64,000 bases of DNA, taken from assembly GCA_022385755.1 (NCBI GenBank), contig MU278355.1:748974-812973 (forward strand), written 5' to 3'. The first letter of the stretch is position 1. Each line of letters opens with the position of its first letter. The notes under the pieces are model-generated. The model saw nothing but the letters and a program-made list of their open reading frames with translations, did no database searches and had not been told where the DNA came from. The position numbers and the translations under genes are program-made. Source of the stretch: Trametopsis cervina (taxonomy: Eukaryota; Basidiomycota; Agaricomycetes; Polyporales; Irpicaceae). Below are positions 42,406 through 49,905 of this stretch, piece by piece.

Positions 42406-43385
42406 TCACTCCATCAACTCCAGCAGCGCCCGGGCAGCGAGTCTCCTCAAGCTATGTACACACAGGGGTGGACTTAATGAACGACAAATGATCGGCAGCA
42501 AACGTTGGAGCTTACCTTACGGGCCTGAGGGCGTGCTCGTGGACCGGCGGGGGTGGCGGGGCGAAGTTGTGGCAGCTCTCCGGAATCGCACCAATGAGTT
42601 GTCCCGAGCATATTAAGTTCACAATACGCTTCGCGTGGGTGTCCCTCAATCTGGAAAATCATTTCAGCAAACGAAACATGTCTGCTATGGATTATCTCTG
42701 CTCGAGATACGCACTGCAAGCCAATGCGGGAGAACGGCGAGACACCCTGAGTGGATTGTTGGAAGCAGTCCGCTGGGATAGTCCCAAGGGGGCCGCTGCA
42801 ACGGTGGTTGACTATGCGCTTCACAGGCCTGTCAGCCAACCTGAAAAAATCATTTCGGTAAACGAGGCATGTCTAATGTGCATGGGGTGCGTTCAAGGTA
42901 CGCACTGCAAGCCAGAGGTCGGCACCGGCCTGGTGGTCACGGTGGCAATGGAACCTGGTGGGAAGCAGTCTTCTGGAATAGGTCCAAGTAAACCGCTGCA
43001 ACGGAGGTTTGGGGCCACGAGGCGCTTCTCGAGCGCGTCTCTCAGCCTGGAAAACCCATGTCAGAAAACGCGGATGCCCGATATGCAGTAGGGTTGCTCA
43101 AGACACGCACTGCAAGCCGATGCCAGAGAACGGCGAGGTAGTCTTAGTGGAACCTTGCGGGAAGCAGTCTGCTGGTATGGTCCCAAGCAAACCACTGCAA
43201 CGGATGTTGACTATGCGCTTCTCCAGAGTGTCCTCACTGGCACTGGCGTGTACAAAGAATACTTGTGAGCCTCGCCATGAGTGGGGGATACCATACTGGA
43301 CTTACACTGGCGTAGACAAAGCAGGCACAACGCCAACTGCCAATACAGCCATGCATGCGGCAAGAGCGGTGAAAGAATAACGCAT
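42406..43385 (-). CDS. Secreted Kex2-processed repeat precursor with four two-cysteine cores, one core per exon
   Basis: Not a family I can name. Six predicted exons (43385-43306, 43242-43111, 43046-42906, 42840-42715, 42650-42516, 42451-42406) total 660 nt, an intact 219-aa frame. Exon 1 is a signal peptide (MRYSFTALAACMAVLAVGVV). Exons 2-5 are homologous: each begins with a linker ending in a dibasic Kex2 site (DTLEKR, DALEKR, DRPVKR, DTHAKR), then a core of about 35-39 residues built on RCSGxLGxIPxDCF. Internal exons are 132, 141, 126 and 135 nt, all multiples of three, and every intron is phase 2. Introns 2-4 are themselves homologous (64, 65, 64 nt; donor gtgcgt). Core 4 is diverged and Pro-rich. 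The gene is expected to release four small peptides, each with one possible disulfide. Confidence 0.72.
42516..43242 (-). repeat. Four tandem exon-intron repeats of the Kex2-repeat gene
   Basis: Units of about 190-205 bp (exon plus following intron) are repeated at 43242-43047, 43046-42841, 42840-42651 and 42650-42516. Both the core-coding parts and the introns (ending ttttccag or ttttttcag) align. The first three share the junction gcac|tgcaagcc (plus strand) at the donor site. Confidence 0.75.
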
Positions 43386-45975: not shown

Positions 45976-46906
45976 ATGTCGCCAGCCACGTCCGAATTCG
46001 AGTTTGAGCTCCCCTCCATTCGATGCAGCCGATGTGCGCGACCGCCAGCGCAAGGCCGGGAGCGGGCGATGAAACGCTGCAACACCTGTCTCCTCGTGAC
46101 TTACTGCGTACGTACCCGCAGTATATCGTAACACAAGACGATGTGGCGACGCGTCTGACTCCCTGACCACAGTCACCCAAGTGTCAACGGGCACATATAG
46201 AGCAGCACAATGCGGTATGTTATCCGCCGTCCGACAAGGACCCACACACCGCAGCATGGGGCGTCTCGTTTAAGGACGAGCCTTTTGACTCTAGGGGGAC
46301 TTCCTCGACGCGATGTCTTTCATCTGGGCAGATGCGTGGATGGGTATGTCCCGCTACCGAGCTCATTGGGCTCCCGTTGTATATTGCGCCGGAGGACGGA
46401 ATGAACTACGCCACAAAGAAAGACTTGCAGAGTGTCTGTCATTACCTGATGATGGACCCAGACACTGGTTTCGCTCTGGACAGGTGCGTTGTGGCATATA
46501 GCTATGTTAATTCTGGTCCTTATTCTCCTCCGCCGATAGCTGGTTAACGGATCCCAGACACAAAGAAATCAACGTAAGTAAATACCCTGAATCGAGCCCA
46601 CGCACGTCCCACTGTCCTCGACCGACGCAAGCCCTCCACCGCCTTGCTGACATTGTCCTGGCGCAATAGTACACTGCATTTCATAATGGTAGACATCCCC
46701 TGACGCCGAACACGTTCGAAACCGTCGTTGCGTTTCTCAGGACGATCGTTGAGACTATGGCAGGTCTCTCACCGGCGGATGGCTGGTCACCCATGAGATC
46801 CTTCCTCACACCCCAAGCGTTCCAGCTTTTCTCACGGACATACTGGGCGGAGCAGGAACGAAAAGGTCGCAAAGGTTGGGAAGAGCTTCAGTACCCGCTG
46901 CTATGA
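45976..46906 (+). CDS. MYND-type zinc finger protein
   Basis: The protein starts MSPATSEFEFELPSIRCSRC and contains a complete MYND finger spread over two exons: C-x2-C (CSRC), C-x2-C (CNTC), YC-x3-C (YCSPKC) and H-x3-H-x3-C (HIEQHNAVC). Reading through the gtatgt at about 46213 is needed for the last Cys, so that is not an intron. The rest (AAWGVSFKDEPFDSRG, ELIGLPLYIAPEDGMNYATK, VCHYLMMDPDTGFALDRW, YTAFHNGRHPLTPNTFETVV, FSRTYWAEQERKGRKGWEEL) has no domain I recognise; the PYLL-like end reads QYPLL. Three introns. Probably a protein-interaction finger; partners unknown. Confidence 0.82.
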
Positions 46907-47029: not shown

Positions 47030-49363
47030 CTACCAGAAATCGTTCTCAGCAATGAGAGTATTCCAAATGTTGGCGTCCGACGACCACTCCGAGGCCGGAA
47101 GGTTCTCGAAGTCGGTGAAGTTCTTGGAGGTGATGTAATCCTGCAACCACAAATTAGATCTTACTTCTAGGTCGGCGTCTGCTTAGAACACACCTTCTCC
47201 CACTCCTGGTTGGCGTAGTACGAGAACCCTTCTCGGTTCCTATGATGGACACAAATCAATACACGACAGTACCAATGAAAGATATGATCGACCCACTCAA
47301 TAGCCCACGGCTTAACAAGACGGCCACCGAGCTCAAGGGACTCGCTGTTCAGCCATGTAACAAACTGCCTCTCGACAGCTGGAAGAAGAGGGAGGTTAGC
47401 ACAGCTGCAAGCTAATGCTTTTCGGAACTTCGTAAATACTGACCTTGAGACGGGCCGGTACCAAAGAGTCCGCGGAAGTTGTTGTATCGCGTGCTGTTGT
47501 ACTGCTCCCATAGCGTCGCCTCGTTGGGGATACGAGCAGTCCCTTCCCAGATCTTCGCAAAGCCGTATGACTGGTGCTTTCCGGAAGTCCAGGGGCGAAC
47601 TAAGATCATCTCAGTTACCTATCCTAAGCAAGAAGACGTGCCAAGACACTCACCAGTCGTGAAGGCGATCGTAGGATCGGGAATATAGTTGCCCGTCCAG
47701 TACACGTTCCTCCAGTTCCCGCTGCTGAACACGTCGGTAGGTGGCTGTGGTGCCAGTGATTTCGGAGGGTTACCAGGGATGCTGGATGCTCTGTTAGACT
47801 TGGGCTTAATCTGCATAAACCTGATCATACATACTCCTTCAGAAGTTTGAGGAGGAAGGGGTTTGCGCTCTTATATCCAGTGGCCAGGATGATCTACAGA
47901 ACCAGATGTCAGCAAGTCTTCCTATCATGTGATTGGTTACAAAGACCGACCTCATCAATGCCAGTCAGGACTGTGCCGTTCGTCAACTTAACCTTGCCAT
48001 CCTTGATACCGTGGTCTAGAGAAGCCAGCGGCTCAAGGGCAGCGATCGTGGGGATGAACTCAGTCTCCGCGGGGAAGCGACGGAACGAACGACGCTGGAA
48101 TGGGTGCAGCTTCTCCCAATCGTATTTCTATAACGAACTGTTAAAGACATTCAATGTATTTTTCATGCACTGCTGACATACCTTCGTACTAGCGAGGACC
48201 TTCTTGGCATAAGGGGCAATGTCACGAGCGATTTCGGAACCAGAGGTACCGACACCAACGACCAAGACGGTCTAAGACGCGGTTAAGTTCGTAGACAAAA
48301 GACTTTAGTGACCAGAACATACCTTTCCTGAGTACCGCTCAGGGTTTCTGTATGCCCTAGAGTGGTATACACTGAACCCTGCGGGGACGTCCGAAGCCTT
48401 AACCTTGCTCCACTGAATCAATCCGTCAATCTCAGGCACGTGCGGTGTCTGGTATGGTCCGGTGGAGATAACGACAGCATCGAATTCTTCTGTCCACCAA
48501 GTAGCCTTCAGACGGTCGGGCTCCTCGAGACGCTTGATATGGCGGAGAGTCAGTGTCCAGGTGTCACCCTGCTTGCTGATGTTCTCAACGCGAGTAGCGT
48601 AAGAGTGTACAGATGAGTTGTCATTTGCATTCAGCTTGTTGATGGTTGCGTATGCGCGAACATGGGCACCGATTGTGTGTGCGCTGATGACCCACGACTA
48701 AGTGAGAGAGATAAGCCACTGCTCGCTCAGCCTTTCTCATACTTAAGCTTACATGGTCAGGTGGGTATGGCACATCTTCCAATCCAGTGATGACAGCAGG
48801 GGAGTTCGTGTGAAGACTGTTCCAGATCGAACGCGGGTGCCAGTGTTCACGCCAACGCTCATCCAAGGTCAGGCCGTCATCCCCGTCGTTGTAGTACTTT
48901 GTGGCAGGGAGATTTTTGGGAACCCATTTTTCCTGGTCAATGGGAGCATCGCTACAGGGTATCGACAATTCAGCAGTGGTAGGCCATAGTATGATCGACG
49001 ACATACGGATAGGACTCCCGATACGGGACCTCCTCAGAATACAGCCAGTTTCCACCTGGGCCTGGTGCTCTATCGAAGAGCCGCACAGTGAAATTGCGCT
49101 CCTGCAGGGCTGCTGCTGCTTGCAGTCCACCGGGGCCTGGAGATATTAGTTCGTCAATGCGCCTCGTCTGCAGCTAGATGACAAGACATACCAGCACCAA
49201 CTACGGCGACGCGTTTAATTTGCTTCGGAAACACAGTCCATCTGTTCGCGTCGTGTACGCGCTGTTGGGGGCCCTCGTACAAGTCGCCGAGCACGACCTG
49301 GCCAGGGTGCGCGACCGCGCCGGAAACGCCTGCGACGAACGCGACAAGAGATAGGAAGCGCAT
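47030..49363 (-). CDS. Secreted FMO-like flavoprotein monooxygenase
   Basis: FAD/NADPH-dependent oxygenase of the flavin-containing monooxygenase group. The start at 49363 opens with a signal peptide (MRFLSLVAFVAGVSGAVA). The FAD-binding RVAVVGAGPGGLQAAAAL is formed across the first intron, followed by GPGGNWLYSEEVPYRESYPY. WHPRSIWNSLHTNSPAVITG, the FMO-identifying region AGFSVYHSRAYRNPERYSGK, the second Rossmann motif VLVVGVGTSGSEIARDI, and IDEIILATGYKSANPFLLKL are all present. It ends NIWNTLIAENDFW with stop at 47030-47032. About eight introns. A signal peptide on an NADPH-dependent enzyme is odd; it may be lumenal (ER) or a membrane anchor. Substrate unknown. Confidence 0.85.
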
Positions 49364-49905
49364 AGTTGCGGTACCTGCCTGCGCGAGTCCATGCGTAGGC
49401 TGTATATACTATACAGCGGATTACGCGATGATGGATTCGGATTGTGCGAACACGACTGTTCTAAACGGGCTTACCGCCGACGTGTATACGCCATATGTCG
49501 AACTCTAATCAGTAGAGCACGACGCGAAGCGCACGTATTATACATCTTCTGCTGCTTGATATCTGTAAGTGACATGTTAACCACGCACATCTCGTGTTTG
49601 CTCGGTAAGACTTGCCTCTGCTATTGCTGTTGTTTCTGTGAAAACGGGTGCCGCGTCAATAACATGAGGTGCGATAAAGAACGAAGGTTCTCAGCATCGC
49701 AACATCAACGGAGCTTCAATCTCAGAGGTGGTTTATCAAATAGTATTTGCAGGCTTCTCGGCTTGCACTTGCACTCACTTCGTAGTCTGGAAACTTCAAC
49801 TCATGTGCGACTACGACATAATAACGAACATCGTCTAGTACGTTGTAATCGCCGCACAGAACGTGCTGATCTAGAAATACATTTACGGAAGATTCAGTGT
49901 CATCC
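49364..49905. other. Intergenic region
   Basis: 540 bp between two minus-strand genes; includes the FMO-like gene promoter (tgtatatactatacag on the plus strand, about 49400). A plus-strand frame crosses it but looks like chance. Confidence 0.4.

Follow-up and report, generated by a model that had tools for sequence, protein, structure and literature searches.

What kind of product is specified by a run of small, look-alike exons in the basidiomycete Trametopsis cervina is the question raised by positions 42406–43385 of a 64,000-nucleotide stretch of contig MU278355.1 (GenBank assembly GCA_022385755.1, positions 748,974 to 812,973), referred to below as the window. The best reading, to which we give a probability of about 0.72, is that the DNA encodes a secreted Kex2-processed repeat protein (KEP) with each module in its own exon, the gene having arisen by tandem duplication of exon and intron together. 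KEP surveys seek repeats within predicted proteins; where each repeat sits in a small exon of its own, as here, the precursor is recovered only if all six exons are called correctly, so that such genes are easily missed and may be under-counted. With this locus it is also simple to ask whether gaining, losing or skipping exons lets fungi change the set of peptides they make, a possibility raised for animals, and its two-cysteine peptides add a further family, with no relative found in the searches made.

Gene architecture and repeat modules

Rebuilt from the sequence, the gene lies on the minus strand (the strand was left unnamed in the earlier note on this DNA), with its ATG at 43385 and its stop codon ending at 42406; coordinates below follow the reading direction. 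Six exons of 80, 132, 141, 126, 135 and 46 nt are joined into a spliced frame of 660 nt encoding 219 residues, with a terminal stop only, and are separated by five GT–AG introns of 63–65 nt. This model agrees with what had been described from the letters alone, namely a signal-peptide exon, four homologous internal exons that are each a multiple of three, a short last exon, introns uniformly in phase 2, and a 660-nt sum leaving one clean frame.

Exon 1 (43385–43306) holds the start codon and, on the splice model and hydropathy, a predicted signal peptide (MRYSFTALAACMAVLAVGVVPALS-TPV), the N-terminal hydrophobic stretch ending in A-L-S. The four modules follow in exon 2 (43242–43111; K-R to C-F stretch 43220–43161), exon 3 (43046–42906; 43027–42962), exon 4 (42840–42715; 42821–42762) and exon 5 (42650–42516), the most diverged, in which the corresponding stretch runs from K-R to C-H (42631–42569). 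The short exon 6 (42451–42406) encodes an R-R site, the fifth dibasic site of the precursor, starting at residue 207 (SLRRLAARALLELME), and a C terminus reading LELME before the stop.

Intron 1 (43305–43243, 63 nt, GTAAGT...CAG) and intron 5 (42515–42452, 64 nt, GTAAGC...TAG) lack homology to the three between them, intron 2 (43110–43047, 64 nt), intron 3 (42905–42841, 65 nt) and intron 4 (42714–42651, 64 nt), all of which open with GTGCGT, a donor compatible with the GTRNGT usual in basidiomycetes. The short motifs CTGAC, CCGAA and CTGAA start 18, 18 and 17 nt from the ends of introns 2, 3 and 4, respectively, with CTCAC at 27 nt in intron 1 and weaker candidates only, at 30 and 44 nt, in intron 5. 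The introns differ in length by single bases, whereas exons 2–5 are multiples of three, and all 16 subsets of exons 2–5 are in frame from exon 1 through exon 6.

Alignment of exons 2–5 gives 13 invariant columns, among them K-R, an asparagine, both cysteines, the S-G after the first cysteine and I-P, and the other three modules are 65, 69 and 45% identical to the first. Modules 1–3 have a C-x10-C spacing of the cysteines and module 4 (ICSGQLIGAIPESCH) a C-x11-C spacing; module 4 also lacks the arginine before the first cysteine and the phenylalanine after the second, so that it departs from the RCSGxLGxIPxDCF-type core that had been assigned to all four exons. The lone tyrosine of the protein is residue 3, within the predicted signal peptide, leaving the cores free of tyrosine. 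An AlphaFold prediction for module 1 alone, run on the single sequence, was of low confidence (pLDDT 61, pTM 0.29).

Duplication history and coding constraint

Introns 2, 3 and 4 align with one another at pairwise scores of 25.5, 25.5 and 26.0, against maxima of 10.5, 15.0 and 15.0 in 300 shuffles per pair with the splice ends kept, confirming the homology reported earlier; the seven pairs involving intron 1 or 5 score within their shuffles. A likeness confined to introns 2–4 is what would be expected had each exon been duplicated in tandem together with the intron behind it, the likely history here, and direct repeats of 61–78 nt do span both exon and intron DNA. Whole-module dS is 0.52–0.83 among exons 2–4 and 1.8–3.8 for pairs with exon 5, values from which the copies are judged to be old (dS 0.5 or more). 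With no module pair near-identical, recent or ongoing unequal exchange or conversion is unsupported: the unequal exchange proposed in the earlier note may explain the origin of the array, while recent gain or homogenisation has left no sign in these distances.

The order of duplication is less distinct. Sites backing the splits 24/35, 23/45 and 25/34 (exon numbers) number 8, 4 and 0, and 24/35 has the best likelihood; its lead is 3.7 and 4.0 log units for whole modules, but only 1.0 when the first 93 alignment columns are used. A two-exon block duplication was considered as a source of this pattern and judged too weak to claim; sister copies 2 and 4 would give the same split.

Base composition and substitution pattern both bear on whether the array is coding. 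The GC3 of the gene (0.664) is close to that of HSP70 (0.661), SUR7 (0.617) and GST (0.707) frames in the same window, with a GC content of 0.478 in the introns and 0.512 in the upstream flank. For exon pairs 2–3, 2–4 and 3–4, the K-R to C-F stretch gives dN values of 0.09, 0.09 and 0.14 and dS values of 0.82, 0.64 and 0.82; comparisons with exon 5 give a dN of 0.37–0.42 with dS saturated. When the observed base changes were placed at random (1000 randomisations; 108 tests over six frames, with p uncorrected and pairs not independent), amino-acid differences in the sense frame fell below random placement in all six pairs, both for the whole module (p 0.001–0.027) and for the K-R to C-F stretch (p 0.001–0.024). 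The tail behind that stretch is under little constraint, with one pair in six below 0.05. The excess of third positions among variable core columns is not significant (13/29, p 0.13), and gaps between modules are whole codons by construction of the protein-guided alignment. Judged from these comparisons, the stretch from K-R through the two cysteines is under purifying selection, and both GC3 and the constraint indicate that the sense frame is the coding one.

An antisense open frame of 199 residues also crosses the gene (42492–43091, plus strand); a Pfam scan of it gave no match, and mild constraint is visible in one antisense frame (-1), with differences below random in three of six module pairs (p 0.01 or less).

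Were the gene mis-modelled or silent, the module duplication would be real and the locus decaying or otherwise spliced; the divergence of the modules and the antisense frame over the same DNA fit such a history, yet the start, the stop, the five splice pairs and the reading frame have all survived a dS of 0.5 or more, and GC3 and constraint favour the sense frame, which makes it distinctly unlikely.

Predicted processing and splicing of the precursor

For a Kex2-processed repeat protein, the expected features are an N-terminal signal peptide, recognised here by hydropathy and the A-L-S end only, and a set of similar motifs, three at the least, adjoining Kex2 sites; the sequence provides four such motifs. 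The precursor would enter the endoplasmic reticulum via its signal peptide, one disulfide would form in each module, Kex2 would cleave after K-R and perhaps also at the R-R of residue 207, and Kex1 would remove the basic residues, so that four related peptides would be secreted. As no dibasic site lies between the second cysteine and the next module, dibasic cleavage should yield peptides of about 38–45 residues; the predicted products after trimming measure 41, 45, 40 and 38 residues with two cysteines each, the last becoming 51 residues if R-R is left uncut. The four short disulfide peptides envisaged in the earlier note are in keeping with this type of precursor, 'short' being the inexact part. 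Since constraint is concentrated in the first ~20 residues from K-R, activity probably resides in the loop, the tail serving as a spacer or forming a loosely held end. By analogy with KEPs at large, the peptides may face outward, as signals or in interactions with other organisms. The genome contains one Kex2-type P_proprotein match, whose six-frame reading has two internal stops, perhaps introns.

A competing account holds that the product is a small secreted protein with four disulfide loops that acts whole, for example in multivalent binding, its K-R sites being uncut or cut once. The long post-loop tails, which carry no second dibasic site, would suit it, and K-R conservation is visible only among the four modules, because no homologue was found in which K-R could be seen to be kept where the rest changes. 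This account is nevertheless unlikely: K-R, noted earlier for each of the four exons, is invariant in all four modules and holds four of the five lysines of the precursor, two of the sites read LEKR, a classical Kex2 context, and the tails are as barely constrained as spacers should be.

With its middle exons all in phase, the proposed KEP gene could alter the number and mix of its peptides whenever a whole exon is duplicated, lost or skipped, while the frame stays intact. It is doubtful, if conceivable, that such changes are made at the level of splicing, the symmetric cassette exons being kept or skipped, or the message ending in a retained intron 2 or 3, to yield different peptide mixtures from one locus. 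Retention of intron 2 or 3 is predicted to add C-V-S or C-V-P before a stop, that of intron 4 to shift the frame, and that of intron 1 or 5 to end translation immediately or one residue later. If peptide output were controlled in this way, a retained intron 2 or 3 would supply a third cysteine, and a disulfide peptide family restricted to one lineage would follow a scheme like that suggested for frog skin-peptide genes, for which no fungal example is known; the added cysteine may be no more than a by-product of the CA/GTGCGT junction.

Known precursors, relatives and surroundings

The locus resembles fungal KEPs, as characterised in the portions available of PMC9769878, PMC7329392 and PMC6339444, in its signal peptide, its repeated motifs (at least three) next to dibasic sites, its small size and its fast divergence. 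A minimum of three motifs is the criterion given in the consulted part of PMC6339444, where a class of peptide motifs of 25–50 residues is also described, and introns are possible in KEP genes according to the available part of PMC9769878, in which Coprinopsis KEPs were expressed in Pichia pastoris. Unlike the KEPs described in those portions, each repeat here has an exon and an intron of its own, together with a conserved C-x10/11-C. The terms 'exon' and 'splic-' are absent from the main texts of the three papers, and one repeat per exon in a fungus was not found in the open-access literature under KEP or Kex2 combined with exon or intron terms. Multi-peptide precursors being common in fungi, it is the one-peptide-per-exon layout that is unusual.

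The earlier note did not recognise the combination of exon-by-exon cores with two conserved cysteines; two cysteines per core are not in themselves unique among KEPs: the sections available of PMC6339444 attribute them to some ascomycete alpha-type pheromones and to one KEP of the basidiomycete yeast Trichosporon oleaginosus. The likeness to the two-cysteine alpha-type pheromone precursors extends to the Kex2 repeats (PMC6339444, in part). It does not extend to the peptides themselves, as the pheromones fall in a class of 9–24 residues, with C-x6-C in the examples printed in the part consulted of that paper, compared with a predicted 38–45 residues, C-x10/11-C and no tryptophan here; nor does a Ste13-type XA or XP come right after K-R, the module sites reading KR-IV or KR-LV.

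The nearest layout found in print, in the portion available of PMC3899252, is that of the caerulein and magainin genes of pipid frogs, in which tandemly duplicated exons likewise contribute a battery of peptides to one secreted precursor, and whose peptide output, in the authors' suggestion, may be controlled in part by alternative splicing. The frog genes are those of an animal and their duplicated unit comprises exons 2 and 3 together, so the comparison is offered as an analogy, with no sequence link claimed. The SP7-like repeat effectors of arbuscular-mycorrhizal fungi were also considered and set aside, the part available of PMC11333574 describing one conserved intron before the first repeat and not an exon per repeat.

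Relatives were sought at several levels. No Pfam family scored above its cut-off in the spliced protein; a Ribosomal_S13_N match (E 0.0048, 17.4 against a cut-off of 25.4 bits) was taken as chance. In a protein-collection search, none of 2361 candidates for the whole precursor, and none of 21 for the module alignment, reached an E of 10 or less, and a profile search of solved structures returned four sequences at that level, the best at 0.58, which were set aside. As a control of coverage, the neighbouring SUR7-like frame retrieved 69 proteins, including those of the Polyporales Cytidiella melzeri, Irpex rosettiformis and Phlebia brevispora, so that fungi are represented in the collection; its nearest named proteins are from Cytidiella, Irpex, Phlebia, Phanerochaete and Phlebiopsis, which makes a phlebioid affinity within the Polyporales probable. 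The absence of relatives is weak evidence, because the search needs shared exact words and the gene models of others. KEPs often lack homologues, 2560 of 7878 being without one in the figures given in the available part of PMC7329392. Searches of the fungus's own genome hit this locus alone (one DNA match, five by the precursor, four by the module), and no further copy of the module occurs in the window, where matches outside the locus have an E of 0.13 or worse.

Basidiomycete CaaX pheromone precursors end in a C-terminal CaaX, a feature that the LELME terminus of the present precursor lacks.

Pfam scans covered 20 of the window's 44 open frames of at least 150 residues, together with 10 shorter ones from the 43.6–49.4 kb interval. 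The neighbours so named are GST, Foie-gras/Gryzun-type (TRAPP) pieces, SUR7, APH, HSP70 and a steroid-dehydrogenase-type frame; UstYa is absent from these 30 frames. That result bears on a ustiloxin-like (dikaritin) kinship, dikaritin precursors being among the known Kex2-processed repeat proteins listed in the earlier note; on this reading, a RiPP precursor would have its cores cyclised by UstYa-type oxidases. Such a precursor would share the signal peptide and the Kex2-type repeats, and at least five UstYa matches do exist in this genome, although those found lie on contigs C1, C11 and C18 and the window on C8, and no UstYa (DUF3328) gene was seen nearby in the frames scanned. The cores are moreover without tyrosine, so that the EDYXI-type core of ustiloxins and phomopsins (as given in the portion available of PMC6339444) does not appear, and a precursor of dikaritin type is very improbable.

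Two further frames of the window are of minor note. At 48308–49408 (minus strand), frame pieces were read by eye as a secreted oxidoreductase (MRFLSLVAFVAGVSG, later VAVVGAGMS), and those pieces that were scanned had no Pfam match at 0.01; at 46670–46903 (plus strand), a DUF255/Thioredox_DsbH match is weak (E 0.00014), its 22.3 bits falling short of the family cut-off of 27. Elsewhere in the genome, the UstYa matches, at least five in number, occur at C1:888669-890303, C18:502119-508294 and C11:427862-428203, a pair of them inside 2 kb on C1 and another pair inside 7 kb on C18, and these groups are possible dikaritin-type clusters of this fungus.
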